Origin: Chloropicon primus
Taxonomy: Eukaryota; Chlorophyta; Chloropicophyceae; Chloropicales; Chloropicaceae
Assembly (NCBI GenBank): GCA_023205875.1
Contig: CP060766.1
Span: 310,001-374,000 of the forward strand
Direction of reading: 5' to 3'
Length of the DNA stretch: 64,000 nt
Shown piece after piece: positions 1 through 50,037 of the stretch (the first letter of the stretch is position 1; the number at the start of each line of letters is the position of its first letter). The notes under the pieces were generated by a model. That model searched no databases. It was not told the DNA's origin and saw only the letters and a program-made list of their open reading frames with translations. The position numbers and the translations under genes were made by a program.

Positions 1-2770
1 ACGGCACCAACACGATTGTCGTCCGCATCGTCAACAGCCAAAGCCATCACCATATTGTCATCACCGCGAGCCACGGCACCAACACGATTCATGTCAGCTT
101 CACCTTCAGCACCAGCAACAACTGTGTTGTTCTCACCACGAGCCACGGCATCAACGCGATTCATGTCAGCAGATTGAGCACCAGCATTCACTGTGTTGTC
201 ATCACCACGAGCCACGGCACCAACACGATTGTCGTCCGCACCCTCAAAAGCCTCAGCAATCACTGTGTTGTCATCACCACGAGCCACGGCACCAACACGA
301 TTCATGTCAGCACCAAACTCAGCAGAAGCCTCCACTTCATTGCGATCACCACGAGCCACGGCACCAACACGATTCATGTCAGCAAGTTGAACAGCCAAAG
401 CCATCACCATATTGTCATCACCGCGAGCCACGGCACCAACACGATTCATGTCAGCTTCACCTTGAGCACCAGCAATCACCATATTGTCATCACCACGAGC
501 CGCGGCACCAACACGATTGTCGTTCGCATCCTCAACAGCAGCAGCCTCCACTATATTGTCATCACCACGAGCCACGGCACCAACACGATTCATGTCAGAT
601 TCTTGAGAAGCAGTAGCAAACAATAAGTTTGCATTCCCGTCAGCCACAGCACTAACGTTATTCATGGTAGCAAAATCATCAGCTTCGGCAGTCACATTGT
701 TGCCATCACCGCGAGCCACGGCACCAACACGATTCATGTCAGCTTCAGCATCAGCAGTAGCCATCACCATATTGTCATCACCACGAGCCGCGGCACCAAC
801 ACGATTGCCAAAGGAATCTACAACAGCACCAGCAATCACTGTGTTGTTCTCACCACGAGCCACGGCATCAACGTCATTCATGTCAGATGCAACAACAGCA
901 ACAGCAGTCACTGTATTATTGTCACCGCGAGCCACGGCACCAACACGATTCATGTCAGATTCTTGAGAAGCAGTAGCAAACAATAAGTTTGCATTCCCGT
1001 CAGCCACAGCACTAACGTTATTCATGGTAGCAAAATCATCAGCTTCGGCAGTCACATTGTTGCCATCACCGCGAGCCGCGGCATCAACACGATTGTCGAC
1101 AACATTCTCAGAAGCTGAAGCCTTCACTGTGTTCTCATCGCCACGAGCCATGGCGCGGAGCCTGTTGCGATCAGATGCCTCGGTCTCGACGGTCACGTCG
1201 TTGCGGTTTCCACGAGCCACGGCACCAACACGATTGTCGTCCGCATCGTCAACAGCACCAGCAATCACCATATTGTCATCACCGCGAGCCACGGCACCAA
1301 CACGATTCATGTCAGCTTCAGCTTCAGCAGTAGCCATCACCATATTGTCATCACCACGAGCCGCGGCACCAACACGATTGCCAGAGGAAACTACAACAGC
1401 ACCAGCAATCACTGTGTTGTCATCACCACGAGCCACGGCGCCAATGTCATTCATGTCAGATGCAGCAACAGCACCAGCAGTCACTGTATTGTTCTCACCA
1501 CGAGCCACGGCACCAACACGATTCATGTCAGCTTCAGCTTCAGCAGTAGCCATCACCATATTGTCATCACCGCGAGCCACGGCACCAACACGATTCATGT
1601 CAGATTCTTGAGAAGCAGTAGCAAACAATAAGTTTGCATTCCCGTCAGCCACAGCACTAACGTTATTCATGGTAGCAAAATCATCAGCTTCGGCAGTCAC
1701 ATTGTTGCCATCACCGCGAGCCGCGGCATCAACACGATTCGCTTCTCAGAAGCTGAAGCCTTCACTGTGTTCTCATCGCCACGAGCCACGGCATCAACGT
1801 CATTCATGGTAGCATTACCATAAGCTTCGGCAGTCATATCACCACGAGCCGCGGCACCAACACGATTGTCGTCCGCATCCTCAGAACCTGCAGCAGTCAC
1901 TGTGTTGCCATCACCGCGAGCCGCAGCATCAACGTCATTCATGTCAGATGCACCAACAGCACCAGCAATCACTGTGTTGTTCTCACCACGAGCCACGGCA
2001 TCAACGTCATTCATGTCAGATGCAACAACAGCAACAGCAGTCACTGTATTATTGTCACCGCGAGCCACGGCACCAACACGATTCATGTCAGATTCAGCTT
2101 CAGCAGTAGCAAACAATAAGTTTGCATTCCCGTCAGCCACGGCACCAACGTCATTCATGGTAGCAGTCTCAGAAGCTTGGGCAGTCACTGTGTTGCCCTC
2201 ACCACGAGCCACGGCTTCAACGTCATTCATGGTAGCACCAAACGCAGCAGTTGCAGTCACTGTGTTGTTATCACCATGAGCCACGGCTTCAACGTGATTC
2301 ATGTCAGCACCAACAGAAGAAGCAGAAACGGTGTTCTCCGAGCCGACAGCCGAAGCGCGGAGGTCATTGTCGTCCCCGCCGTCAGCCGTAGCACTTGCGG
2401 TGGACGACGAACCTTTTGCTTCGCCCGTCAACATTCCGTCACCAGAAACCTCGGTCATGACGATCTCACCCGCACCACTCATGGAGGCGGTGCTGCTGCC
2501 TTGAGCAGCGCCATCGGTGGTCATCGCCATGACCTTTGCTTTGGTGTCTCCGGCGTCGGCCTCAGCGGAGGCCATGAAGGTGCCGCTGCCGTCGACTTCC
2601 GCCTTGCTTGTTTCGCTCGCGATGCCAATACCGCTGCTCCCAACGGTGCTCGCCTTGGACCTTCCGTAGCTGTGGGGCCTCCCCCACCTCTGGCCGTACA
2701 CAGGCGTGGCGGCGGCCACCACCACCACCACGGCCAGCCAAACGCACAACCACTCGACGTTCTTTTTCAT
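1..2770 (-). pseudogene. Secreted 24-residue-repeat protein, copy 1 (frame-broken; 3' part beyond window)
   Basis: The reading frame opens with an ATG at 2770 and a clear signal peptide (MKKNVEWLCVWLAVVVVVAA, probable cleavage after VYG). A Ser/Ala/Gly-rich stretch and then 24-residue repeats follow (pattern NTVxA...DMNDVDAVARGDx). The frame closes at 1697 after 357 residues, but repeats continue in another frame from about 1740 to base 1. Against the equivalent site in copy 2 (about 5380-5400), the segment near 1740-1745 is 7 bases shorter, which explains the shift. Near 1830 a 9-base in-frame loss is also seen. The repeats are 72 bp long with one 69-bp unit (about 1142-1210). The regular Asn/Val/Ala spacing suggests a beta-solenoid; this is inference and the function is unknown. 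It may be a pseudogene, a truncated allele or an assembly error in repetitive DNA. Confidence 0.65.
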
Positions 2771-3136
2771 TTTTTCTTTTTCAGTTGATGTTGTTGTTGT
2801 TCGGCTCCGCAGCGGTCAACCACCGAGCGCCTTCTGCTCACGTCGCTTCTTCTCTTCGTCCTCGCCGCCCTTCCCTCCCTCCCTCCTCTCCGTTCCGTTC
2901 CGTTTCCCTTCACGAAGAGAAAAGCGCTTTCGACGGAGGGGTTCCCTTCCTGCGCGTCGTGTCGTTTCGTTGCGTTGTCGTGGACGCGTTCTCGTCCCCT
3001 CGTCCCCTCCCTCTCCCTCTGGTGGTCGCCCTCCTCCCCTCCTCCCCTCTCCTCTGCCCGGGCGTTAATTCTCTCGGGCCTCATCCGTTAGCCACGGAAT
3101 TAACCACAGCACTCGGGAATTCTCCTCGAAAAATCT
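2771..3136. repeat. Duplicated 5' flank of the repeat-protein genes (copy 1)
   Basis: This stretch matches 7077-7442 almost base for base and lies directly upstream of the start codon of each repeat-protein gene. The tandem duplication therefore carried the promoter and 5' leader with the gene. Similarity stops at about 3136 (after CTCGAAAAATCT). Confidence 0.85.
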
Positions 3137-3170
3137 TGGCAATCCGAGAGTTAACGCCCGGGCAGAGGAG
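3050..3170. repeat. Inverted repeat with CCCGGGCGTTAA arms
   Basis: The left arm (about 3050-3079, CTCTGCCCGGGCGTTAA then TCTCGGG) is the reverse complement of the right arm (about 3143-3170, CCGAGAG then TTAACGCCCGGGCAGAG). About 70 bases separate them. The right arm lies just outside the duplicated promoter block. Confidence 0.75.
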
Positions 3171-3917
3171 AGGAGAGGAGAGGAGAGGCCTCGGGAGGAG
3201 AGACAGGGACGGGAGTTGGGCAAGGAGAGAGACGAGGATAGGGAGGGAACCTCCTCCTGTCCTGGGTTCGAGAAAGATGAGTGCTTTGGTCAATGGAAAC
3301 GACGACGATCGACGTTGGGAGTGGAGGACCTTCAAGGACTGCGAGCCTGGTCCCGATGAGCATCGAGCTGGACTGGTTCCTTTGGAAGGAGGGAGAGAAG
3401 AGGAGAGACGTCTCCAATCCCCACCACAGGGTCCTCGCGATCTTTTACTGAGTGGGAGGACAGCAAGCAGTGCGTGTGGGAGAAGGAGAGGACTGTCCAG
3501 GGAAGAAAAATATATTAAATATTTAATACTTGATTATAATTTTGCTTTGTTTTGTTTTGTGTATGCTCGTTCGTTCGCTCCTCGAGAGCTCGATGACGAC
3601 AGAGCAGCTTCCGCGATGAGGAGGACGAAGACCACCACCAGCATCGTAGATGGGGACGGGAGTTGGCCAAGGAGAGAGAGAGAGACGAGGCCAAGGAGGG
3701 AACCTCCTGTCCTGTCCTGTTGAGGAGATTCCTGCCCCGGTTTCGAAAGATCCGGCAGGAGCTGAAAGAGGGAATAACATGGATAAAAAAAGACAAACGT
3801 TTGTGTTTGTGTACTTTTAGATCTTGAAAAGGAACAAAGGAGGAACCTTGGGAGGCTCGAAGCAGGACCAGTGGTCGTTGCTAAAACCCCAAACACTTGA
3901 TCCACGGTTTCTTTGAA
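3137..3917. other. Intergenic, low complexity, no gene supported
   Basis: Purine-rich simple sequence (AGGAG runs near 3170-3190) and a dispersed direct repeat of about 60 bp: 3211-3285 resembles 3655-3720 (shared GACGGGAGTTGG and GGGAACCTCCT). Open frames here are biased low-complexity sequence with no recognisable protein. Confidence 0.5.
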
Positions 3918-6900
3918 TTAAGGCACGTTAACTGTCTTCGACATGCCATTACCACGAACAAGGACCGGCCTGACCACGCCTTCCGCTTTCTTGGCCTTGA
4001 CGGTCACGTCGTTGCGGTTTCCGCGAGCCAAGGCGCGGAGCCTGTTGCGATCAGATTTCTTGGCCTTGACGGTCACGTCGTTGCGGTTTCCGCGAGCCAT
4101 GGCGCGGAGCCTGTTGCGATCAGATGCCTCGGTCTCGACGGTCACGCCGTTGCGGTTTCCACGAGCCATGGCGCGGAGTCTGTTGCGATCAGATTCCGCG
4201 GTCACGACGGTCACGTCGTTGCGGTTTCCGCGAGCCATGGCGCGGAGCCTGTTGCGATCAGATGCCTCGGTCTCGACGGTCACGCCGTTGCGGTTTCCAC
4301 GAGCCATGGCGCGGAGTCTGTTGCGATCAGATTCCGCGGTCACGACGGTCACGTCGTTGCGGTTTCCGCGAGCCATGGCGCGGAGCCTGTTGCGATCAGA
4401 TGCCTCGGTCTCGACGGTCACGCCGTTGCGGTTTCCACGAGCCATGGCGCGGAGTCTGTTGCGATCAGATTCCGCGGTCACGACGGTCACGTCGTTGCGG
4501 TTTCCGCGAGCCATGGCGCGGAGCCTGTTGCGATCAGATGCCTCGGTCTCGACGGTCACGCCGTTGCGGTTTCCGCGAGCCATGGCGCGGAGCCTGTTGC
4601 GATCAGATGCCTCGGTCTCGACGGTCACGCCGTTGCGGTTTCCACGAGCCATGGCGCGGAGCCTGTTGCGATCAGATTCCGCGGTCACGACGGTCACGTC
4701 GTTGCGGTTTCCGCGAGCCATGGCGCGGAGCCTGTTGCGATCAGATTCCTCGGTCTCGACGGTCACGTCGTTGCGGTTTCCGCGAGCCACGGCACCAACA
4801 CGATTGTCGTCCGCATCGTCAACAGCACCAGCAATCACCATGTTGTCATCACCACGAGCCGCGGCACTAACACGATTCATGTCAGCACCAAACTCAGCAG
4901 AAGCCTCCACTTCATTGCGATCACCACGAGCCACGGCACCAACACGATTGCCAGAGGAAACTACAAAAGCAGCAGCCTCCACTGTATTGTCATCACCACG
5001 AGCCGCGGCACCAACACGATTGCCAGAGGAAACTACAAGAGCACCAGCATTCACTGTGTTGTTCTCACCACGAGCCACGGCACCAATGTCATTCATGTCA
5101 GATGCAGCAACAGCAACAGCAGTCACTGTATTGTTGTCACCACGAGCCACGGCACCAACACGATTCATGTCAGCTTCAGCTTCAGCAGTAGCCATCACCA
5201 TATTGTCATCACCGCGAGCCACGGCACCAACACGATTCATGTCAGATTCTTGAGAAGCAGTAGCAAACAATAAGTTTGCATTCCCGTCAGCCACGGCACT
5301 AACGTTATTCATGGTAGCAAAATCATCAGCTTCGGCAGTCACATTGTTGCCATCACCGCGAGCCGCGGCATCAACACGATTGTCGACAACATTCTCAGAA
5401 GCTGAAGCCTTCACTGTGTTCTCATCGCCACGAGCCACGGCATCAACGTCATTCATGGTAGCATTACCATAAGCTTCGGCAGTCACTGTGTTATCATCAC
5501 CACGAGCCACGGCACCAACACGATTGTCGTCCGCATCCTCAAAAGCACCAGCAATCACTGTGTTGTCATCACCACGAGCCACGGCACCAACACGATTGTC
5601 GTCCGCATCCTCAAAAGCACCAGCAATCACCATGTTGTCATCACCACGAGCCACGGCACCAACACGATTGTCGTCCGCATCGTCAACAGCACCAGCCTCC
5701 ACTGTATTGTCATCACCGCGAGCCGCGGCACCAATGTCATTCATGTCAGATGCAGCAACAGCAACAGCAGTCACTGTATTGTTGTCACCACGAGCCACGG
5801 CACCAACACGATTCATGTCAGCTTCAGCTTCAGCAGTAGCCATCACCATATTGTCATCACCGCGAGCCACGGCACCAACACGATTCATGTCAGATTCTTG
5901 AGAAGCAGTAGCAAACAATAAGTTTGCATTCCCGTCAGCCACGGCACTAACGTTATTCATGGTAGCAGTCTCAGAAGCTTGGGCAGTCACATTGTTGCCA
6001 TCACCGCGAGCCGCGGCATCAACACGATTGTCGACAACATTCTCAGAAGCTGAAGCCTTCACTGTGTTCTCATCGCCACGAGCCACGGCATCAACGTCAT
6101 TCATGGTAGCATTACCATAAGCTTCGGCAGTCACTGTGTTATCATCACCACGAGCCACGGCACCAACACGATTGTCGTCCGCATCCTCAAAAGCACCAGC
6201 AATCACTGTGTTGTCATCACCACGAGCCACGGCACCAACACGATTGTCGTCCGCATCGTCAACAGCACCAGCCTCCACTGTATTGTCATCACCGCGAGCC
6301 GCGGCACCAACACGATTGTCGTCCGCACCATCAACAGCACCAGCAATCACCATATTGTCATCACCGCGAGCCACGGCACCAACACGATTGTCGTCCGCAT
6401 CGTCAACAGCCAAAGCCATCACCATATTGTCATCACCGCGAGCCACGGCTTCAACACGATTGTCGTCCGCATCGTCAACAGCCAAAGCCATCACCATATT
6501 GTCATCACCGCGAGCCACGGCACCAACACGATTGTCGTCCGCATCGTCAACAGCACCAGCCTCCACTGTATTGCCGTCACCATGAGCCACGGCATCAATG
6601 TGATTCATGTCAGCATCAACAGAAGAAGCAGAAACGGTGTTCCCCGAGCCGACAGCCGAAGCGCGGAGGTCATTGTCGTCCCCGCCGTCAGCCGTAGCAC
6701 TTGCGGTGGACGACGAACCTTTTGCTTCGCCCGTCAACATTCCGTCACCAGAAACCTCGGTCATGACCATCTCACCCGCACCACTCATGGAGGCGGTGCT
6801 GCTGCCTTGAGCAGCGCCATCGGTGGTCATCGCCATGACCTTTGCTTTGGTGTCTCCGGCGTCGGCCTCAGCGGAGGCCATGAAGGTGCCGCTGCCGTCG

Positions 6901-9586: not shown

Positions 9587-11929
9587 TTATCTTAACAGCT
9601 CCAGGAGGAGGCCAAGAAGGTCGTCGCAAGACTCGTGCTTGGTGGAGAAGGGGGAGCACATGAAGTACACCACGTTGCCAAGGGGGCGGGAGTAGACTCC
9701 GCGATCTCTCAGGAGTTGGACGAGATCCGCCGAAGCCGTGGAGTTGTAACCCTGCTCCCCCGAGAGCTCCACGGCGAGGACGGTGCCGAGGGCGACGGCG
9801 TTCTCGACGCGAGCCGCCTTGGAGATTTCCGCCGTGAGGTCCTCGTCCCAGTAGATCCTGGAGCCCTCGTCCACCTTGAGGATCGCGTTGTATCTGTCGA
9901 ACGCAAAGTTAGCGGCGGAGCAACCGATGGGGTGGGCGGTGTAGCTGTGCCCGTGGAGCAAGGCATTCGTCTTGGAATCGTCCAGGAAGCAGTCGAAGAC
10001 GTCCTCGCCGGCCAGGGTCACTCCGAGGGGGACCGCGCCTCCCGTGAGGAGTTTGCCGTAGCACGCGATGTCCGGATTGATCCCCAGGAGATCCTTGACG
10101 GACTCGTAACCAAAGCGGTAGAGCCCCACGAAAATCTCGTCGAAGATCACGGGAATTCCCCGACCCCTGCAGTAGCTCACCAGCTCCCTCTGCCACAGCG
10201 GGTCGATGAACTTCATGCCGCCGGCTCCCTGGCAGACCGGCTCGATCAGCAGAGCCCCCAAGTTGTCGTGCCCCTCCAGCTCGTCCCTGATGACCTCGTT
10301 GTACAGCCCTCGAAGCTCGGCGTCTTGGTCGAAAAAATCTCGGATGTCGTCGTCGAAAAAGTCCGTCAGGGACTTGAACGGCGTTTCCACCACCAATCTC
10401 CCATCGTCCACCTCGATGCTCCACGTCCCGCCCTTTTGCTTGAGGTAGGCGGGCTGCAAGGGGACGCACTGCTGCACGTTCCAAGGAAACTGGACGGGGC
10501 CGTTGAACACGCTCTTCTCCACCGCATTCATGCACGCGAGGGTGTCCCCGTGGTACCCGTGCCTCTGGGTGACCACGGAGACGCCCCCAAAGTCGAATTC
10601 GACGTCCTCGTCCCCGAGGCAATCGGGCCCGAGGCGATCCACGAGGTACTTTCGGAACGCCATCTTCAGGGCGACCTCGATCGCCGTGGACCCGTTGTCC
10701 GAGTAAAACACTCGGCTGGCCCATCCTTGGCCGGGACCCCGCAACAGGTTCCTCGTGCAGCGCAGGACGGGCTCGTGCACGTTCGTGGGAAAGATGACGT
10801 GGCCAAACCTGCTTGCGGCGTACCCCAATTTCTTCGCCATCTCCATCTGCATCTGCAGGTCTGGTCCCTGCGTCCACCAGCTCGCACAGGCGTCGAACTG
10901 GGGCGCGAGGCAGCCCTTCTCTCCGTCAAAAGTCGTGAACTGGTGCCCCTCCTTGCTGTCGATGACCATGATCTCTCCCTCGTCCAGGGCCTTGTGCTGC
11001 ACGAAGGGGTACCAGAAAGTCCGCAGAGCTTCCGCCTTGAGGCTTTCCATCTCTCCCACCTTCCGGAGGTGGGCGTCCATGACATCCTTCACGACAACCT
11101 CGGCCTCCGCCCTCGTCCCGGTCAGGGAGAGCCACTCCTCCAGCTCCCTCACGTAGTCCTCGCCGTCCGTGACGCACGTCTTGGATTCGAGCGGCGTCAT
11201 TCTCCTCACCTCGACCTCGGAGCCCGCCACGTGGCCCTCCAACGCCTCCTTGTTGTTCAAACCCTTCTCCCCGTCCTCCAGGATCAGCAAGTGGGACAGG
11301 TCGAAACCCCTGATCTCGATCGATTCCTTCGCGGAGAGCGTGCCGGTGATCCCCCCCAGCGCCGCGCTCCCGACGAGTATCCCTGGGTACCTCAGCGGCC
11401 TCAGCAAGTCCGCGAGGAGCGTGCCCGAGGGCCCGGGCGAAAGCGGCCCCCCCGCGATCTCGACCAGCATCAGCCCGTCCAGGTTCGAATCGCGGAGCTC
11501 CCGCCTGAACGCTTCCTCCTGCAACCGTATCGCGCGCACAACGTCACCGTCAGGGACGAGGCGCCCCTCCATCTCCACCGCCAAGTGAGGCGACACGGGA
11601 TTCCTCCAACCGAAGAGCGTCGCCGCGGAGGCAAAGGCAGAGGCAGAGGTGCCTCCCCCGCCTCCTTCCCCTTCCCCTCCCGCAATTCCCGCGACCGCCG
11701 CGAGAGCGTGCGAGCCCACATCGTGCCCAGCACCGAGTGCCCTCGCCACCCTCGCTCCGTCCATCTCCCACACGTTGCCGCTCACCCCCGTCTGAATCGG
11801 CTTGAGGTATCGTACAGGAACCCGAAGCCTCCTGGCCGCGGAGGAGAGGGCACAGGACACCAAAGTCTTCCCGACATCCGTGTTACTTCCCCAGATTAGC
11901 CTCACCGCCAACCTCCCTCCCGTCGCCAT
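9587..11929 (-). CDS. BIO3-BIO1: Bifunctional dethiobiotin synthetase / DAPA aminotransferase
   Basis: A 780-residue fusion for the two middle steps of biotin synthesis. The N-terminal dethiobiotin synthetase has the P-loop IWGSNTDVGKTLVS (residues about 11-24) and KPIQTG, then VEIAGGPLSPGPSGTL. The C-terminal class III aminotransferase makes 7,8-diaminopelargonate using SAM and PLP. It shows VFYSDNGSTAIEVALKMAF, the GYHGDT motif, IFDEIFVGLYRFGY and the PLP-lysine context DIACYGKLLTGGAVPLGVTL, then LLHGHSYTAHPIG. Land-plant and fungal fusions have this same order; plant BIO3-BIO1 is mitochondrial. ATG 11929 is chosen because it begins right at the synthetase fold. The frame stays open upstream to 12280 without ATG inside the promoter, so a targeting peptide on another exon cannot be excluded. 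Confidence 0.95.
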   Translation of the reverse strand: MATGGRLAVRLIWGSNTDVGKTLVSCALSSAARRLRVPVRYLKPIQTGVSGNVWEMDGARVARALGAGHDVGSHALAAVAGIAGGEGEGGGGGTSASAFASAATLFGWRNPVSPHLAVEMEGRLVPDGDVVRAIRLQEEAFRRELRDSNLDGLMLVEIAGGPLSPGPSGTLLADLLRPLRYPGILVGSAALGGITGTLSAKESIEIRGFDLSHLLILEDGEKGLNNKEALEGHVAGSEVEVRRMTPLESKTCVTDGEDYVRELEEWLSLTGTRAEAEVVVKDVMDAHLRKVGEMESLKAEALRTFWYPFVQHKALDEGEIMVIDSKEGHQFTTFDGEKGCLAPQFDACASWWTQGPDLQMQMEMAKKLGYAASRFGHVIFPTNVHEPVLRCTRNLLRGPGQGWASRVFYSDNGSTAIEVALKMAFRKYLVDRLGPDCLGDEDVEFDFGGVSVVTQRHGYHGDTLACMNAVEKSVFNGPVQFPWNVQQCVPLQPAYLKQKGGTWSIEVDDGRLVVETPFKSLTDFFDDDIRDFFDQDAELRGLYNEVIRDELEGHDNLGALLIEPVCQGAGGMKFIDPLWQRELVSYCRGRGIPVIFDEIFVGLYRFGYESVKDLLGINPDIACYGKLLTGGAVPLGVTLAGEDVFDCFLDDSKTNALLHGHSYTAHPIGCSAANFAFDRYNAILKVDEGSRIYWDEDLTAEISKAARVENAVALGTVLAVELSGEQGYNSTASADLVQLLRDRGVYSRPLGNVVYFMCSPFSTKHESCDDLLGLLLELLR

Positions 11930-12288
11930 CCTCCCTCCAAAAACGTAACGTAACGCCCGAGCTCTTTCTCTCTCTCTGTCTCTCCCGCCAAAATTTTGAG
12001 GCCTCGTCCTCCATGTTTCTCCCGCCAAGAGTCGAGCGATCGACCTGAGACTGTGGGCGAGGGATGCCCAAGGAAGGACGGGAGAGAGAGAGAGAGGGGA
12101 GGAGAGCAAGACAGACAGGCGGAAGCGTCTTGTCGTGACCTTTCGAAAGAGCCGTCGCTCGAGGCAAGCGACTCGGTATTGAGGATTGGAAACCAAGACG
12201 AACACGCGGTGGAATTTGTTGAAGCTTTTTGTGTGCCGTTTCGTCCATCGTTTCCTAGGTTTTGTTTTGTTTGTGGTCAAGGGAAGCG
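11930..12288. promoter_or_regulatory. Bidirectional promoter between BIO3-BIO1 and the coiled-coil gene
   Basis: 359 bases between divergent starts. Contains ACGTAACGTAACGCCCGAG just upstream of BIO3-BIO1 (11943-11961) and a palindromic CTTTCGAAAG core at 12139-12148 inside CGTGACCTTTCGAAAGAGCC. That core fits the recurrent upstream element in either direction. No other gene seen. Confidence 0.5.
12134..12156 (+). promoter_or_regulatory. Upstream element, instance for the 12289 gene
   Basis: CGTGACCTTTCGAAAGAGCC, 133-155 bases before the ATG and in gene orientation; the CTTTCGAAAG core is self-complementary and may serve BIO3-BIO1 too. Confidence 0.45.
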
Positions 12289-31531: not shown

Positions 31532-32589
31532 ATGGGGTCGGACAACAAGCCCGGCGAAGGCAATGGCCGGCAGATGACCGAGTCCCGTCAAGCGGAGGCC
31601 AGGTCGAGCGGCGGAGGCGAGTCGGTGGTCGCAGCGACGAGAAGGATTGTGAAGACACACCCGAAAAAGGTCACTACTTTGGTCCTGTGGGCCTTGGGAA
31701 TCTTTTGCATGCTCTTTGCTCCTGCTCCCATGAAGATCACTCCAGAGATGCAAATGAGGTACGTCGCACACACAAGACCCTCTGCCCTCGCGTTTTTCTC
31801 GTGGCCTCTGTGCCTCTTCATCACATCGCATCTGACTAATCCTTGTGTGCCTCATCTCATGATCATCACCGTCACCATCATCACCAAACTCGTCGCTCTC
31901 ACAGGTATCAGCAAAAGATGGACAAGGTGATGGACCTCTCCGCGGATTTCACGAGGACGACCAAGGAGCTCGACAAGTTCTACGCTGAGCTGAATGCCGC
32001 GAAGAGTTTTGGTTGGTACTTTAGGAGCGCGGACCGGAAAGCCGTGAACGAGATCAAGGACAGGATGGCTCCCATAGAGACGGAGTACAAGCAGCTCGAG
32101 AAGAGGAGGGACACGCTGGAGAGCGAGGCCAGGGGGGAGCTTGGCTTGTGGTCGGAGGCTGGCATCCAGGAGGCGAGGGATGTGTTCTGGTCGACTTACA
32201 AGAGAGGGAGGCGGTCTGCTCAGGCCGGCATTGTTTGGGACCTGGTGTGGGAGCTCTTCCGCAGCGACAACTACGAAGACTCCGTCAACTTTTTGTTCAG
32301 GATCATCTGGATCGTGGTCTCGAACTTTGTCATGTTTCTCATCACTTCGAGCATCGTGTTCCTGTTCAAAGTGGTCTGGGTCATCCGCTCTTTCAAGCCG
32401 AGCCTGATTTCGGGCATCTTCTTCTACCTCGTCGCGACGCTTGCTGCGTTGAGCACCGTCGGGGCGATGATTTCCCTCCTCGTCGGGGCCGGGGTAGGGT
32501 CCGCTGCAATCGTGGCCAAGAACGCGCGGTACCTTCCGCAGTCGAACAGAAGGAGGTACGTGAGGCACCAGCGGACGCACCAGGAATAA
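31532..32589 (+). CDS. Multi-pass membrane protein with coiled coil, unknown
   Basis: Two exons: 31532-31758 and 31905-32589 (intron 146 bp, GTACGT...TCACAG, phase 2), 303 residues. One membrane span near the N-terminus (TTLVLWALGIFCMLFAPAPM) is followed by a cytosolic or lumenal helical segment (about 75-165, KMDKVMDLSADFTRTTKELD ... EYKQLEKRRDTLESEARGEL). Three more spans follow: FRIIWIVVSNFVMFLITSSI with VFLFKVVWVI, GIFFYLVATLAALSTVGAMI and LLVGAGVGSAAIV. The tail is basic (SNRRRYVRHQRTHQE). I do not recognise the family; the splice junction joins one frame cleanly and places MQMR next to YQQKMDKV. Confidence 0.75.
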
Positions 32590-32923
32590 GTAAGTTGGAG
32601 AGAGAGAGGGGGGGGATCACTCTGGTTTGGGGCAAAAGGGGTAGCCTCCTCCCACCTGTGAAGAGGATGCTGGGGCAAGTAACCAAAATCAATTTTTTTC
32701 TCTCTCTTCAAAAACACCAAACAACTCAAAACCTTTCGACCTTCTTGCCGACTCCACAAAACAAGTATCCTCACCACAGGGGCGAACAAAATCCCAAACT
32801 GTTGTTATGGTGTTCAGACATCAGATCAAAAACAGCACACAGAAAAGTCACGAAAGGACGGTAGGGAATTCACAGTCAATACTGGAAGCACAAAGGCAAG
32901 TCTAAACCGGCCACTACTTACCT
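32590..32923. other. Intergenic 3' flank, nothing recognised
   Basis: Trailer of the membrane-protein gene and AT-richer sequence up to the Fanzor right end at 32924. The minus strand immediately beyond that end reads AGGTAAGTAGTGG. Confidence 0.4.
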
Positions 32924-33074
32924 GTTAGTTTTCTGCAAAGGTCGTTTCACCGAGTTTGTAAGTTTCTCGGCAGGGTAATTCAGCCCTACCACGACCATTC
33001 CACCGTACATGAACGAATACTTCCGCCCACGCACGGCAGCCCGTACTAACAAACGTATGTGCAACCCTGAGGAG
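32924..33074 (-). ncRNA. Candidate Fanzor guide RNA (omega-RNA-like) region / element right end
   Basis: In TnpB and Fanzor systems the guide RNA scaffold overlaps or follows the 3' end of the nuclease gene and ends at the element boundary. This 151-base stretch after the stop is noncoding yet partly conserved with the flank of the second copy (49634-49750). The TAACTCCTCAGGGTTGCA just after the stop and the terminal block (GTTAGTTTT-TGCAAAGGTCG on the plus strand) match almost fully, and similarity ends abruptly at GTTAG. An internal hairpin, GGCAGGGTAATTCAGCCCTA then CC (32969-32990), has a 7-bp stem and an 8-base loop; it is absent from the second copy. Transcription is not shown by the sequence; the role is inference. 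Confidence 0.5.
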
Positions 33075-34859
33075 TTACACACTTTTTGGTTGACGCAAGT
33101 GCTTGAGAAGGATGTTGCGTGCCCCGTTATCGTCCCGACCGCACTTGAAGCCACACTTCTGGCACTTGTACACCTCTGCTCCACCCAGGTTGTCCTTGAT
33201 GTGTCCGCACCTGCCACAGGTCTTGGAGGTGTACTCCTCCGTCACGATCGCCAGCTCACTGCCGTGCAAGAGCACCTTGGAAGCCAAGAACGTTCTGAAC
33301 GCATAGTGCCTCAACGTCAAGAGCGTGCGAGCCGTCTTCTTCCTGATCACTCGGCGTCTCCCGTTGTTGTTCTTCTTCACCATGTCTTGGGACTTGAACT
33401 CCGGGAGGAGGATTGTGTCGAACCTCCTGCATAGATCGTTGGCTACCTTTTTGTGAAGCTCGTTAGTGAGACCTCGAATTTTCTCCATGCAGGCGTATTG
33501 CTGTCTCTTCAAGTCGCGGCGGTCGAGGTAAGGGAGCTTCACCTTTGGGTCTTTGCGCTCGGAAATGATCTCATCAATCCTCCAGCAGAGGTTGAACAGC
33601 CTCGCGAAGCCTCGCTCGCCCTTGGCATACTCCCCGACGCCTTCTTGCGGCGAGTACGACGTCTGAAAGGTCCTGACTCCCGGATCCAGGGCGACAACCT
33701 TCCGCTTGTTCTCAGGCTTCAGGGGTGGCAGGCGATCCCATGGCGTCGCGATGGGAATGTGCATGTGGAACTGCCCAAGGCGATTTCTTGTGATCTTCAC
33801 GGCACCCTCGATCTTGCCCCCGGGGATCTCCTCCGTCAAGTACAGGGGCCCGCCGGCCATCTTCTTCTTGAACACCTCCAGCTTGGTCCACTTGCGTCGT
33901 TTCTTGTGCTTCGTGTCATCCTTGTGCCTCGTTCTCGGTCTTTCGATCGTCTCCACGTTCTTTAACTCTCTTGCATCAATTTCAATAGTCCAAGAACTCG
34001 GTTGCTGACGTTGACGATACTTGAGAACGAAGCGGTGCCCCTTCTCCTCGCCGCGCTCCTTCATCGCTTCCTGCTTCGCGATGTTCGAATCCCATGCCTT
34101 GATCAGACTTCGCACGGCAGCTTGTCTGATGGCACAGGGGGTTTCCTTCAGCCAAGGATGCTCCTGATTCACAAAGGCCCCGCTAACGTAGTCCCGGTCC
34201 TTGGCCACTTCGGCGCGAAATCGTCTGCCTCCAATTTGGCTCTCGAGTCTCTTCTCTCTGGCCGCGAAAAGCTCTGCCTCCTGTTTTGTCCATGGCCGTG
34301 GAGAGCATTGGATTTCTTTCAGCTCTTTCTCCAGCCCCTCAAAGACCTCAGGGCGTCGCGGTTTGGCCGTCACAAATCTGTCCAGCAGGACGGTCCAAAC
34401 CAGCGGAAAACCCTCCTTCTTGACCGCCTCCAAACACTTGTTGTATGTGAAACGCGCAGCTCCCATCCAGTTGCAAAGGCACTTCGCCTGCTCAGGGTTC
34501 AAGCGCATCCTAAGCTTCCTCGTCCGTATCACCGTTCGCTCCGACAATAGCTTGGAGGTCTTCAGTTTCTGCTCCCTCTTCCTTTTGGCGGGCGACTGCA
34601 ATGTCTCGACGGATACCACAGAATCTTCTGGAAGGTTCAAGCACGACCTCCATCCCGTCTTCGGACACTTTACCTCTTCAAGTTCTCTCTTGATCGATGA
34701 GAACCAGGTCTTCTTCACGCTGTCGTCCGCCAAGCCACCCGGCTGCTTCCTGCTTTCTTCCCCTCTTGTTCTTCTTCTTCTTGCCCTTCTTCTTGTTCTT
34801 CTTCTTGCCCTTCTTGCGAGGCTTCTTGCGAGGCTTGCCTGACGAGCTCGAACTCTCAC
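33075..34859 (-). CDS. Fanzor (eukaryotic TnpB-like) RNA-guided nuclease family protein
   Basis: 594 residues. Family features in order: a basic N-terminus; the TnpB N-terminal helix RKLRMRLNPEQAKCLCNWMG with AARFTYNKCL (112-142); WLKETPCAIRQAAVRSLIKA (236-255); RuvC-I VVALDPGVRTFQTSY with Asp392; RuvC-II TILLPEF with Glu487; and zinc ribbon CGRCG / CQKCG (Cys548, 551, 566, 569) running into RuvC-III CGRDDNGARNILL (Asp576). All three acidic residues and four Cys are present, so the nuclease core looks intact. The sequence resembles the Fanzor2/IS607-type branch. Upstream (34860-35239, ATG at 35239) two other frames encode Ser/Lys-rich repeats such as SSTPRKKRGKRKEK that look like a nuclear-targeting N-terminus. 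Two similar units there differ by one C in a C-run, so the true N-terminus is unsettled. Confidence 0.88.
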   Translation of the reverse strand: MRVRARQASLARSLARRARRRTRRRARRRRTRGEESRKQPGGLADDSVKKTWFSSIKRELEEVKCPKTGWRSCLNLPEDSVVSVETLQSPAKRKREQKLKTSKLLSERTVIRTRKLRMRLNPEQAKCLCNWMGAARFTYNKCLEAVKKEGFPLVWTVLLDRFVTAKPRRPEVFEGLEKELKEIQCSPRPWTKQEAELFAAREKRLESQIGGRRFRAEVAKDRDYVSGAFVNQEHPWLKETPCAIRQAAVRSLIKAWDSNIAKQEAMKERGEEKGHRFVLKYRQRQQPSSWTIEIDARELKNVETIERPRTRHKDDTKHKKRRKWTKLEVFKKKMAGGPLYLTEEIPGGKIEGAVKITRNRLGQFHMHIPIATPWDRLPPLKPENKRKVVALDPGVRTFQTSYSPQEGVGEYAKGERGFARLFNLCWRIDEIISERKDPKVKLPYLDRRDLKRQQYACMEKIRGLTNELHKKVANDLCRRFDTILLPEFKSQDMVKKNNNGRRRVIRKKTARTLLTLRHYAFRTFLASKVLLHGSELAIVTEEYTSKTCGRCGHIKDNLGGAEVYKCQKCGFKCGRDDNGARNILLKHLRQPKSV

Positions 34860-35239
34860 CCGCAGAGGCGTCCGCCTCCGGCGGCTTCCCCTTCCGCTTC
34901 CCCCCGCTTCTTGCGAGGCGTGCTCGAACCCTCCTCGAAAGCAGAGGCGGGGTCGTCCAGCGGCTTCTCCTTCCGCTTCCCCCGCTTCTTGCGAGGCGTG
35001 CTCGAACCCTCACCCGCAGAGGCGGGGTCGTCCGCGGTAGGAAGCAGGCACAACGCGTAGAGCCACGCTAAACCCTGATTCCAGAACCGAAGTAACGGCC
35101 GCTCCGTCGTCGGAGACTCCTGCCCCGACTTCGAAGCGCCCTGAGCATGACTCTCGCCAGAGTGCGACCTCCTTGTGGAACTCGTCGAGCCACTCCCCTG
35201 CTTCTCCTTTTTCTTACGGCGCTTCCCTGATCGCGCCAT
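34860..35239 (-). other. Basic, Ser-rich N-terminal coding sequence possibly belonging to the Fanzor gene
   Basis: ATG 35239 opens MARSGKRRKKKEKQGSGSTS and runs to 34856 as a basic, repetitive polypeptide with two DDPASA...SSTPRKKRG units about 80 bases apart. The third unit and the Lys-rich tract (KKGKKKNKKKGKKKK) sit in a second frame, and the nuclease core in a third. I see no clear splice sites. The basic tracts would serve as nuclear localisation signals. It could be one gene with indels in low-complexity runs, sequence error, or separate frames. Confidence 0.4.
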
Positions 35240-35658
35240 GACGGTTATTAGGGTTTCACTCGCTTCCCTCCTCGTAACTCCTCGTAACTATAGATTTGCC
35301 TTGTCCAGCAAGTGAGAACACGAGAAAAACGCTTAGGGGGTTGTCCTTTGGGTGTGACCAAACTGGTATACACTGGAATCCCACCAACAGGGGAAAACCT
35401 CCAACAACTGTTCTCTCCTCGGGTGAAGGGAGAGAGGAGGTCCTCGGCCAAGGATAAGGCGACGGACGGGATCCACGGTGCTGGCGATCGTCACCAAAGG
35501 AAGCTTCGTCTCGCGGGCTTTCGAATGACCCCTCGGACAGAGGCGTTGACCTCGGGAAGCTCCTGAGTCGTCGAGAAAAGCCAAGCAGACGGACAGGCAG
35601 TTAGGGGTAAGAGGGAGGAGAGGAGAGGAGAGAGGGGGAGGAGAGGGGGTGAGAAGCC
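35240..35658. promoter_or_regulatory. Divergent region between Fanzor and VPS34 genes
   Basis: Near the Fanzor side there is a short direct repeat (CTCCTCGTAACTCCTCGTAA, about 35270-35288). On the VPS34 side there is one upstream element at 35510 and a purine-rich leader. The left end of the Fanzor element cannot be placed from one full copy. Confidence 0.45.
35510..35534 (+). promoter_or_regulatory. Upstream element for the VPS34-like gene
   Basis: CTCGCGGGCTTTCGAATG then ACCCCTC, 125-149 bases before ATG 35659. Confidence 0.5.
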
Positions 35659-38338
35659 ATGCAGGCCAGCGGTTCTTCCTCCCAGAATGGAGGACGAGGA
35701 GGGAAGGACGGGGTGGTGAGGTTCTTGGTCTCATCCGAGATCTCTCAAAAGGTCGAGCTCCGGGTGAACCGAGTGAAGGGAGACTTCAATAGGATACAAA
35801 AGAACGGGAGTATCGATAGCAGGAAGGCTGTCACTGGCTTCAGGCACGACCTCATGCGGTTGAGGCAGTACAGGCTGGAGTGTGTGCTGTATTACAATGG
35901 CCAGGCGCTCTGTCGGCCCGTGAGCACTCGCTTCACTTCACCTTCGAACGGTGGAAAGGAGTGCATATGGGACGAGGTGGTCACCTTTTGTGTCAAGTAC
36001 AGAGACTTGCCACAGGATACTCTGCTGGGCCTGACGGTCTGGCCGAGTGAGCAGCCCACGCGGAACGGAAGCAATGACGTGATGAGGCCTATGGGCGGTT
36101 GCACACTGAAGTTGTTCAGCAAGAAACTCCGGTTGAGGTGCGGGAGCAGGAAGCTGAGGCTGTGGCACGGCTTGGAGGCTTGCGGGAAGGAGAAGTGCGC
36201 GACTCCTGGGAAGATTCCGGTCAAGGAGAGGGGGGAAACGGGTTTGCTGGAGAGGCAGCTCAAGCACTACAACAGGGGTGACATGCCTCAGATAGAGCAG
36301 CTGGACAAGCTCTGCATAGCGAAAATTTACGAGCGGTTGGCTCAAGAGGAGCAAGAGATGACGGAGAAAGGTCTTTACCTCCTTCAGGTCGAGTTGGCGA
36401 ATTACCCGCTGCCCGTCCTGTTCCAGGAGTCCTCTGTGGGCAACAAGAGCAGCTTGTCCTCTCAGGGCTCGCTGGGCAACGCGCAACTGTCGCCGCAGAA
36501 CTCTCTTTCTCCGACGATGGATATCCACGACATTCTCCAGGAGGGCCCCAACATCGGCCAGAAGTTCATGGACGTCCAGGGTCCTCACCTGATACACGTG
36601 AGCGACCCGGAGATCGGGAGGGAGAACCCAGCGGAGAGGAAGGCCCAGAGAATGGCGAGATCCGAGGGACCAAGCACGGTGGGAGCCGACAGGAACCTCA
36701 AGCCGAACAGCAGCGAGAAGAGAGCGATCGAAAGTGTTCTGAGGCAGCCGCTGACTCAAGCTCTGAGGAGGGAGGCCAAGAAGCTCTTGTGGAGGTTCAG
36801 GTACAGCATGCTGGACAACCCCGCTGCTCTCGTGAAGTTCCTCCTGGCGGTGGATTGGCAGGTGGCGGACGAGGTCCAAGAGGCATTGAACCTGATGAGG
36901 CAGTGGGCATCGGTGAGCACGACAGACGCCCTGTGCTTGCTGTCCTCGAATTTCACGAACCCTGGCGTGAGGGAGCACGCCGTGGGCGTTCTGAGAACAG
37001 CAGAAGACGAAGAGATTGTAAGCTACTTGCTGCAGCTGGTGCAGGCCCTCCGGTACGAGCACAGCGCAGATGATTCCCCCTTGGCGGCCTTCCTCATTAA
37101 GAGGGCATGCCAGAATCACGTCTTGGGCAACTTCTTGCACTGGTACTTGTTCGTCGAGTGGCAAGACCCTGTCTTTGGCCCCGAGTACGCGCAGATTTAC
37201 GACAGGTTTGTGAACGCCTTGCTCTCGGAGCCATCTGGGTACGCCCTGTGGGACGACATCAGGAGGCAGATGGAGCTCGTGGCTCAGCTCACGGCAGTGA
37301 AGAGGGAAATCGAGAGCTTGAGAACAGCGGCAAGGAAGAAGGACAAGCTCATCGAGCTTCTCAGTGAGAGCGGCTTGTGCGAGGAGCTGGCGAGTCTGAG
37401 GCTTCCCTTGCCCTTGGACCCGATCGTCCTGCTGACCGGGGTCATTCCTGAAGAGTCCTCGGTCTTCAAAAGCGCCCTCACGCCCTTGAAGCTCACCTTC
37501 AAGACGGCCGTGACAGTCAACGGCCACGCCTTGCCTGAGACAAAGTACAGCATCATTTTCAAGAAAGGGGACGACCTTCGGCAGGACCAGCTCGTCGTGC
37601 AAATGATTCAGCTCATGGACAACCTGCTGAAGAAGGATGGCCTCGACCTCAAGTTGAACCCGTACAAGGTGCTGGCCACTGCCGCGGGGAGAGATGCGGC
37701 CGACTACTCTGGCTTTGTGGAGTGCGTGCCAAAGTGCAGGCCGATCTCTAACGTCCTTGAGCAGTACAGGGACATCAGGAGGTTTCTTGCCGAGTATTGT
37801 CCCGATCCCATGAACCGACAGAATCCTGCCAAGGAGGCCTTGAAGAACTTCATCAAGTCCTGCGCAGGATCGTGCGTTGTCACCTACATTCTCGGGGTGG
37901 GGGACAGGCACCTCGATAACCTGATGCTCACGGAGGACGGCATGCTGTTTCACATCGATTTCGGGTACATCTTGGGGAAGGACCCCAAACCTTTCCCTCC
38001 CCCAATGAAGTTGTGCAAGGAGATGGTGGAGGCCATGGGGGGCTCGAACTCTTGAGTCGTACAGGCAGTTCCACAGCTACTGCTGCGAGGCTTACAACAT
38101 TCTGAGAAAGTGGGCGCCTCTCATTCTCAACCTCTTCCAGCTCATGGAGGGCGCGAGGATACCAGACATAAGCAACGATCCGGAGAAGGCCATGCTGAAG
38201 CTCCAAGAGAAGTTCAGGCTCGACTTGAACGACGAGGAAGCCGGCCAATGGATGCAGAAGCTAATCAACGACAGCGCATCTGCCCTCATGCCGCAGCTCA
38301 TGGAGACCGCCCACCGCTGGGCGACGTACTGGCGATAA
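35659..38338 (+). CDS. VPS34: Class III phosphatidylinositol 3-kinase (VPS34), with a late in-frame TGA / +1 shift
   Basis: Makes PI3P on endosomes and autophagic membranes. N-terminal C2 domain (about 20-190), helical PIK domain (about 350-530, LRREAKKLLWRFRYSMLDNP, ALNLMRQW) and lipid-kinase domain (from about 590). The kinase shows KYSIIFKKGDDLRQDQLVVQ, catalytic GVGDRHLDNLM and activation loop HIDFGYILGKDPKPFPPPMK. The frame stops at TGA 38053-38055 just after EAMGGSNS. One base later the conserved tail continues to a TAA at 38336-38338: ESYRQFHSYCCEAYNILRKW ... QKLINDSASALMPQLMETAH, RWATYWR. The sequence at the shift is AACTCTTGAGTCG. The tail helix is normally needed for activity, so this is either a sequence error, a damaging allele or a programmed +1 shift. 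Confidence 0.9.
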
Positions 38339-49633: not shown

Positions 49634-50037
49634 GTTAGTTTTGTGCAAAGGTCGTTTCAGTTTGAGTTTCTCGAAATGACCATGCCGCCCTTAGCAAGCA
49701 AGCAAGCTCGCGAGCAAGGGCAGCTCGTACGCGTGTGCAACCCTGAGGAGTTACACTTCTTGTGGTTCACGCAAGTGCTTGAGAAGGATGTTGCGTGCCC
49801 CGTTATCGTCCCGACCGCACTTGAAGCCATACTCCTGGCACTTGTAAACCTTTGCTCCACCCAGGTTCTTCTTGATGTGTCCGCACCTGCCACAGGTCTT
49901 GGAGGTGTACTCCTCCGTCACGATCGCCAGCTCACTGCCGCGCAAGAGCACCTTGGAAGCCAAGTACGTTCTGAGCGCATAGTGCCTCAACGTCAAAAGC
50001 ATGCGAGCCGTCTTCTTCCTGATCACTCGGCGTCTCC
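49634..50037 (-). pseudogene. Truncated Fanzor relic: C-terminal coding end plus 3' flank
   Basis: About 95 percent identical over the coding part to the 3' end of the full gene (33075-33360). It keeps RRRVIRKKTARMLLTLRHYA, EEYTSKTCGRCG and CGRDDNGARNILLKHL with the same stop (49751-49753). RuvC-I and RuvC-II are absent because similarity ends at 50037, and the fourth zinc Cys is Tyr here (CQEYG for CQKCG). It therefore cannot encode a working nuclease. The 3' flank to 49634 is conserved at both ends and ends at the same GTTAG boundary. Confidence 0.88.

Follow-up and report, generated by a model that had tools for sequence, protein, structure and literature searches.

Fanzors are studied as eukaryotic RNA-guided nucleases, and together with the cyanobacterial 'pro-Fanzors' they have been defined by a DPG motif at RuvC-I and a catalytic glutamate six residues before the zinc ribbon (PMC10711439, cited here and below from part of its text), with the published fingerprint DPG-x(120-160)-E-x6-CxxC-x(12-18)-CxxC-x(4-8)-D. 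The same text describes a 3' pseudoknot that is needed for the activity of ISXfa1, an IS607 TnpB, and is predicted in Fanzor2s, reports that the scaffold of ISXfa1 takes in the first flanking base, and gives a TDG motif as characteristic of Fanzor1. Here we describe a gene of this kind in a stretch of 64,000 nucleotides (nt) from Chloropicon primus (contig CP060766.1, positions 310,001 to 374,000; this whole stretch is called the window, and positions are counted from its first letter). We consider it probable that the window holds a Fanzor2-grade element in a eukaryotic chromosome, belonging to the lineage of the cyanobacterial IS607 pro-Fanzors and having no recognisable serine transposase in the window, with its 3' flank serving as a right-end RNA scaffold. 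This reading is carried by the Fanzor fingerprint of the predicted protein, its kinship with pro-Fanzors, a right end common to two copies, and a flank that folds strongly and may form a terminal pseudoknot.

The gene is read from the minus strand as follows:

33075..34859, minus strand: Fanzor2-like nuclease core, a 594-codon open frame (P0001) with GTG as first codon, first ATG at codon 118, helix-turn-helix (HTH), RuvC-I/II/III and zinc ribbon

Its translation matched Pfam Cas12f1-like_TNB at residues 518-583 (1.8e-17) and HTH_OrfB_IS605 at residues 111-147 (6.2e-7), and scored 94.2 bits against the bacterial guided-TnpB model of NCBI, just short of the cut-off of 100. The RuvC-I DPG is D392-P393-G394, the RuvC-II glutamate is E541, lying at the alternative position (Ealt) six residues ahead of the zinc ribbon (E541-x6-C548), the C4 ribbon is formed by C548, C551, C566 and C569, and the RuvC-III aspartate, D576, follows it; counted on the translation, the spacings are 146, 6, 14 and 6 residues and agree with the published expression. 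None of these acidic residues and cysteines varied across a 14-row alignment with relatives. A sequence-only reading of this DNA had proposed an intact Fanzor-type nuclease with all RuvC acidic residues and zinc-ribbon cysteines present, and the DPG, E541, ribbon and D576 bear out the type, which can be given more exactly as Fanzor2 grade; the residues are indeed all there, with the correction that the RuvC-II glutamate is the Fanzor-type E541, while proline 486 stands where TnpB classically has its glutamate (the E of VVIED in L004).

The closest relatives found are cyanobacterial IS607 TnpBs, the pro-Fanzors. Genomes were scanned with a three-row alignment that joined P0001 to a plasmid TnpB of Trichormus and a remnant from a Nodularia phage; as two of these rows come from a cyanobacterium or a cyanophage, the patterns found are biased. 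The scan gave 158 confirmed loci, and the best 80 of them all have cyanobacterial titles. Local segments of P0001 were 30-52% identical to cyanobacterial loci, and a frame meeting a loose form of the fingerprint was present in 72 of 92 loci. When a pro-Fanzor hidden Markov model (HMM), built from 54 loci frames of at least 450 residues, was run against 1430 six-frame segments, it matched the stop-to-stop segment 35009-33078, which contains the nuclease frame, at 5.4e-73 and the second copy described below at 3e-34. The best PDB profile match was mimivirus Fanzor2 L79 (8.5e-51), with no Fanzor1 chain among 32 such matches up to E = 1; the closest fold to an AlphaFold model of P0001 was again a mimivirus Fanzor2 (9b0l, E 1.3e-14), SpuFz1 ranked only 35th, and a TDG motif was not seen in the translation. 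In a quick tree of 60 rows with long branches, which had L79 as a fragment and did not include Fanzor1, P0001 fell with pro-Fanzors, Vibrio phage and viral-contig TnpB (55 rows, 96% by the Shimodaira-Hasegawa-like approximate likelihood ratio test, SH-aLRT). It is from the fingerprint, the profile and the modelled fold, and not from the tree, that the Fanzor2 grade is assigned, and the gene is a further member of the known Fanzor2 family. When viral contigs were scanned with single proteins, neither P0001 nor the L79 fragment brought up relatives; two relatives, L007 (on a 162-kb viral contig) and L003 (Vibrio phage), keep the alternative glutamate and have no zinc-ribbon cysteines. The tnpA match of the Vibrio phage relative is interrupted by a stop.

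The right end of the element can be placed by means of a second copy, which lies 16.7 kb from the first and adjoins an HLH gene:

49634..50037, minus strand: copy 2, a decayed, 5'-truncated remnant with the last ~95 codons and the flank

Copy 2 aligns with copy 1 over 304 nt at 94.7% and then at both ends of the flank. Both copies terminate in AAAACTAAC and the sequence beyond does not align (the bases right after ACTAAC are AG in copy 1 and GG in copy 2); in the whole window AAAACTAAC/GTTAGTTTT was found at these two right ends only. The boundary that had been proposed at GTTAG (32924) was confirmed in so far as both copies, the two available for comparison, stop at the identical base. Thirteen codons are changed in copy 2, 2 of them synonymously and 11 not, with changes by codon position of 7/5/4 and thus no third-position excess, and one zinc cysteine is replaced by tyrosine. 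From its sequence copy 2 looks like a pseudogene remnant, and it speaks for mobility and for the boundary but not for function. Terminal inverted repeats gave a best match under the shuffled mean, reached by 177 of 200 shuffles, and no inverted repeat was found within 34500-37000.

The flank that ends at this boundary has the following features:

32924..33074, minus strand: candidate omega/right-end RNA scaffold, the noncoding 3' flank of 151 nt
33061..33078, minus strand: stem-loop 1, GTAACTC[CTCA]GGGTTGC, overlapping the stop codon; in the minimum free energy (MFE) fold of copy 2, not in that of copy 1
33042..33055, minus strand: stem-loop 2, CGT[TTGTTAGT]ACG, whose GTTAGT (33050-33045) is complementary to the ACTAAC at the 3' terminus
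33000..33039, minus strand: stem-loop 3, an 18-bp hairpin, both arms altered in copy 2 with pairing kept
32940..32996, minus strand: stem 4, GGTCGT...ACGACC enclosing GGTAGGG/CCCTGCC, from sequence
32924..32929, minus strand: the 3' terminal strand of the possible pseudoknot, ACTAAC, whose last base is the right end

The stretch 32924-33077 had an MFE of -58.6 kcal/mol (z = -4.6, 0 of 200 shuffles), and the flank of copy 2 also folded better than most shuffles (z = -3.25, 2 of 200). Stem-loop 3 was equalled by 0 of 2000 shuffles in copy 1 and 52 of 2000 in copy 2, and swapping its arms between the copies weakened the fold to -14.9 and -7.5 kcal/mol, compared with about -26 for the unswapped hairpins, which has the look of covariation, seen in two sequences only. 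The GGTC/GACC part of stem 4 is paired in the MFE fold of copy 2, and the outer helix is absent from that of copy 1. The pseudoknot would comprise 6 bp, GTTAGT (33050-33045) with ACTAAC (32929-32924), exactly at the end, and a right-end RNA with such a 3' terminal pseudoknot next to the right end is the prediction that these models give. The flank had been put forward as a scaffold by analogy with TnpB/Fanzor systems, and the strong fold together with a layout like that of right-end RNAs favours this proposal; we regard the flank as a plausible guide-RNA scaffold.

This layout was set beside the right ends of pro-Fanzors. At 63 of 72 loci A[AT]GTATC[AT]G occurs 110-130 nt past RDxNG with variable sequence beyond it, and, because the stop codon ends 9 nt short of the right end in 43 of these 63, the pro-Fanzor scaffold lies largely inside the gene. 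Folds examined for 46 of the 63 right ends, in three groups, plus the best terminal helices, suggest that stem-loop 1 comes first, followed by a small stem-loop with a loop that pairs to the 3' end, a hairpin that varies, more pairing and finally the 3' end itself. The longest terminal helix was GATAC/GTATC or AGATAC/GTATCT in 40 of the 63, and a 3'-terminal pseudoknot (tested for as a helix of at least 5 bp ending no more than 3 nt from the 3' end, with its partner inside a hairpin loop) was found in 55 of the 63 compared to 4.0% of shuffles. A solo right end was noticed in Nodularia phage 2AV2 (L002:2501-2749), which retains of a pro-Fanzor only the zinc-ribbon end, together with a right end that has both pseudoknot strands; it is possibly a guide-only locus. 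The right-end DNA pattern had no match in viral contigs, and a tRNA search returned none.

Immediately outside the boundary lies the putative guide:

32904..32923, minus strand: candidate native guide AGGTAAGTAGTGGCCGGTTT, or one base later, at 32922, should the first belong to the scaffold

The minus strand after 32924 reads AGGTAAGTAGTGGCCGG. Since the first flanking base of ISXfa1 is scaffold, and the window pseudoknot could take in one more base (the A at 32923), the guide may begin GGTAAGTAGTGG rather than AGGTAAGTAGTGG. The sequence-only reading had suggested looking for this outside sequence at an empty site elsewhere, and none was found within the window, where its first 12 bases had no other match at up to 2 mismatches and its first 20 none at up to 4, the nearest having 3/15 or 5/20 mismatches. 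On the minus strand the right end (32916-32924) abuts CAGGTAAGT, which spans the junction and which we take to be a perfect 5' splice-site consensus; as it occurs twice in the window, once per strand, where by our own estimate ~0.5 would be expected, no inference was drawn from it.

In the mechanism that we propose, the gene transcript or a separate RNA would give a right-end RNA of ~150-200 nt, running from after RuvC-III to 32924 and held by the pairing of 33050-33045 with 32929-32924, and the bases beyond 32924 would serve as guide. Protein and RNA would cut matching DNA beside a target-adjacent motif, for instance at an empty sister site, and repair of the cut would then copy the element back. 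The window protein ends soon past the zinc ribbon, and most of its scaffold would be noncoding, unlike that of the cyanobacterial kin.

Several observations weigh against this reading of a Fanzor2-grade element with an RNA scaffold. The AlphaFold model is moderate (mean predicted local distance difference test score, pLDDT, 66.2; predicted template modelling score, pTM, 0.55), as is its agreement with 9b0l (TM 0.44/0.51), and in the tree the end branch of P0001 is 3.22 long and its placement not firm, with the L79 fragment, itself Fanzor2, outside the group of P0001 at a weak fork (9%), which does not speak for a P0001-L79 pair. The MFE fold of copy 1 contains stem-loop 3 but not stem-loops 1, 2 and 4. 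The hairpin-loop pseudoknot test was devised after the match had been seen, and 47 of 5000 shuffles gave a pseudoknot like that of the window at 6 bp and 144 of 5000 at 5 bp or more; judged on the length of the helix and nothing else, it does not stand out (99 of 2000 shuffles). The flank had no Rfam match, and its nucleotide comparison with pro-Fanzor right ends produced nothing beyond 10-15-mers, at E 0.24 or more. In copy 2, 8 nt including the pseudoknot loop are missing and no such helix can be made. Conservation of the flank with the second copy, as first claimed for its two ends, holds there, both ends aligning; the middle is diverged far more than the coding part, and on account of this divergence and of the lost loop the two copies do not show that the flank is conserved for its function. 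A left end of the element was not found by comparing the two copies. Finally, the 594-codon frame opens with GTG and is without ATG until codon 118, which lies inside the core.

This last point, together with two features at the start of the gene, means that it could not be upheld as intact:

34856..35239, minus strand: probable 5' end of the nuclease gene, a 127-codon ATG open reading frame (ORF) in another frame, with the piece ERPLLRFWNQ
34834..35037, minus strand: tandem low-complexity tract coding for lysine/arginine, unit ~76 nt and not a multiple of 3, with frame changes within

The ATG ORF from 35239 (stop at 34858-34856) runs in a different frame to P0001, and no single ATG-started frame of the gene is translatable without splicing. 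On a pro-Fanzor N-terminal profile its ERPLLRFWNQ aligns upstream of the match of the P0001 frame, the two lying in the correct order at positions 69-106 and 133-177; the E-values are weak (best domains 1.0 for the ATG ORF and 0.31 for the P0001 frame), and these were the sole window segments with E < 3 out of 2495. The real profile score was reached by 0 of 2000 shuffles for the ATG ORF, 2 of 2000 for residues 1-108 and 0 of 2000 for residues 40-108 (each set of 2000 yielded 1974 to 1987 scores, the remainder falling under the reporting threshold). Because the N-terminal part matches pro-Fanzors in two frames, the gene is either spliced or broken. A GT-AG intron at 35013-34934 (80 nt) would give a single frame and came joint first on a crude score, but as one of 299 in-frame candidates it counts as no evidence; splicing and a frameshift in the tract are each possible, and production of protein from copy 1 hinges on an unproven event of one or the other kind within it. 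The tract itself may be nuclear-localisation-like.

The same features would suit a dead or dying Fanzor2 relic, its coding capacity broken in the 5' tract and its flank a decaying right end, and we hold this to be a serious possibility, somewhat short of an even chance. Three frames are coding-like between 35239 and 34700, the tandem unit does not preserve the frame, no ATG precedes codon 118, and copy 2 shows no third-position excess and is missing both a zinc cysteine and the loop of the pseudoknot. Conversely, ~555 core codons are open with catalytic and zinc residues kept, which would be unlikely after long neutral decay, and an intron could restore one frame.

IS607 elements carry a serine recombinase TnpA next to tnpB or overlapping it, insert at a dinucleotide and have no inverted repeats. 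No such TnpA was found beside the nuclease gene by tblastn or with a TnpA HMM, and tnpA is not recognisable in the window; a tnpA-like string in the window's other frames, noted on comparison by eye, was dropped as it had no support from the TnpA HMM. An IS607 TnpA-like match is present at 57 of 72 pro-Fanzor loci, and at 53 of these 57 the long nuclease frame is tnpA + 1 (within L013-L092; for example L017:1471-2082 and 1505-3181), with 565-649 nt of tnpA shared by it in 11 out of 12 loci for which the overlap was listed; Vibrio phage and viral-contig relatives have the same tnpA overlap. Among 31 tnpA regions that lack stops, the +1 frame is stop-free in 24 (median null mean 3.6 stops) and the +2 frame is open in none. 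For pairs from 28 loci with core identity of 0.5-0.97, divergence at fourfold sites was 0.447 for tnpA and 0.654 for the TnpB core, and tnpA had the lower value in 190 of 195 filtered pairs (4 opposite, 1 tie) and in all 12 of 12 disjoint pairs. The pro-Fanzor N-terminus, which we had treated as ordinary coding sequence until this was dropped for its overlap with tnpA, is apparently overprinted on tnpA under dual constraint, although constraint on the DNA itself would fit too, and the N-terminal extension is probably real overprinted coding sequence.

For the window, the trace of an overlapping frame is weak, consisting of the N-terminal profile matches given above, and it is possible that the window N-terminus descends from the overprinted frame. 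We suggest, tentatively and as somewhat less probable than its contrary, that the Fanzor N-terminal extension arose from an alternate frame of a lost tnpA (the first ~190 residues of the nuclease being, in cyanobacterial pro-Fanzors, overprinted and under selection of their own), and that the eukaryotic element dropped tnpA, retained and re-expanded the frame as a basic nuclear-targeting N-terminus and moved its scaffold out of the coding sequence. If true, this would suggest an origin for the N-terminal extensions of some Fanzor2 proteins and is directly testable. A limited literature search found no mention of a tnpA overprint, and the terms 'overlap' and 'N-termin' are absent from the part of the text of PMC10711439 examined.

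The hairpins of the flank could also be DNA transposition sites, forming a transposase-recognised right end rather than an RNA, an explanation which we think unlikely. It would account for the flank stopping at the element boundary, and IS200/IS605 ends do carry single-strand DNA hairpins, but the protein is of the IS607 lineage, which uses a double-strand serine recombinase and shows the TnpA-like match at most of its loci, and the layout resembles pro-Fanzor right ends; both roles can coexist.

The chromosomal setting bears on what remains. The nuclease gene sits between plus-strand ORFs at 31843-32589 (no Pfam match) and 35659-38055 (PI3-kinase-type), and this, with no transposase match nearby, would be in keeping with a host-domesticated Fanzor kept for a cellular role and not part of an element. 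We regard this as improbable, as the decayed second copy with the same right end suggests past mobility and we know of no orthologue of the nuclease gene at the same place. A Pfam scan of 20 window ORFs gave, among other matches, PI3-kinase, cNMP-binding protein kinase, kelch, TPR-DnaJ, FAE1-type synthase, cytochrome-b5 desaturase, HLH protein and an AAA_26/aminotransferase fusion, and because of these matches the window looks eukaryotic, perhaps photosynthetic. Contamination of a eukaryotic assembly by a bacterial TnpB, towards which the near-threshold score with the bacterial model and the local identities to cyanobacterial loci would point, is very improbable given that each of the two copies, 16.7 kb from one another, has a eukaryotic-type gene next to it, that identity to relatives is only 25-34% over the aligned length, and that the N-terminal tract is rich in lysine/arginine.

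Other features of the window were seen in passing. The minus-strand ORF 9587-12280 has AAA_26 and aminotransferase class III domains in one frame and is presumably like a fused BioD-BioA. A large tandem array of 72-bp units (24 codons) extends from 45 to 5700 or beyond, its family D1 having 49 overlapping copies (30 of the 49 listed); a 69-bp tandem array lies at 3852-4910, and two stretches of 300 nt, at 2245 and 2765, are found again at 6551 (95%) and 7076 (97%).

Set against the described systems, a chromosomal Fanzor2 with its scaffold mostly past the stop codon and a cyanobacterial-like pseudoknot layout might shed light on the way in which the guide RNA came to be separated from the coding sequence. 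Fanzor1 (SpuFz1, GtFz1) shares the RNA-guided RuvC nuclease and the alternative glutamate (PMC10711439 and the part consulted of PMC11423790) and differs from P0001 in the profile matches, the fold ranking and the TDG motif given above. The 'ghost' Spu-1 elements of Spizellomyces (described in the portion used of PMC10432273) are like copy 2 in keeping right-end sequence without the full gene, whereas copy 2 is truncated at its 5' end and lacks the pseudoknot loop. Mimivirus L79/ISvMimi1 (PDB 9b0l) is the best solved relative by profile and fold and has the active-site arrangement in common with the window gene, but it is virus-borne and only 18% identical in the fold alignment. The Fanzor2* genes, which the consulted text of PMC10711439 describes as captured by eukaryotic transposons, for example in Chloropicon primus and molluscs, are, as here, Fanzor2s in eukaryotic chromosomes without an adjoining IS607 transposase; they have inverted repeats, whereas none were found around the gene described here, a distinction made by description and not by sequence. 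The pro-Fanzors (PMC10711439 and our scan loci) differ from the window gene in their tnpA, in a scaffold that is not mostly past the stop codon, in a shorter distance from RuvC-III to the right end, in ending with GTATC[AT]G and not ACTAAC, and in the low overall identity already noted, and they share with it the DPG with relocated glutamate, the zinc ribbon, the HTH/WED start, the N-terminal WFS region and a right end with the terminal pseudoknot layout.

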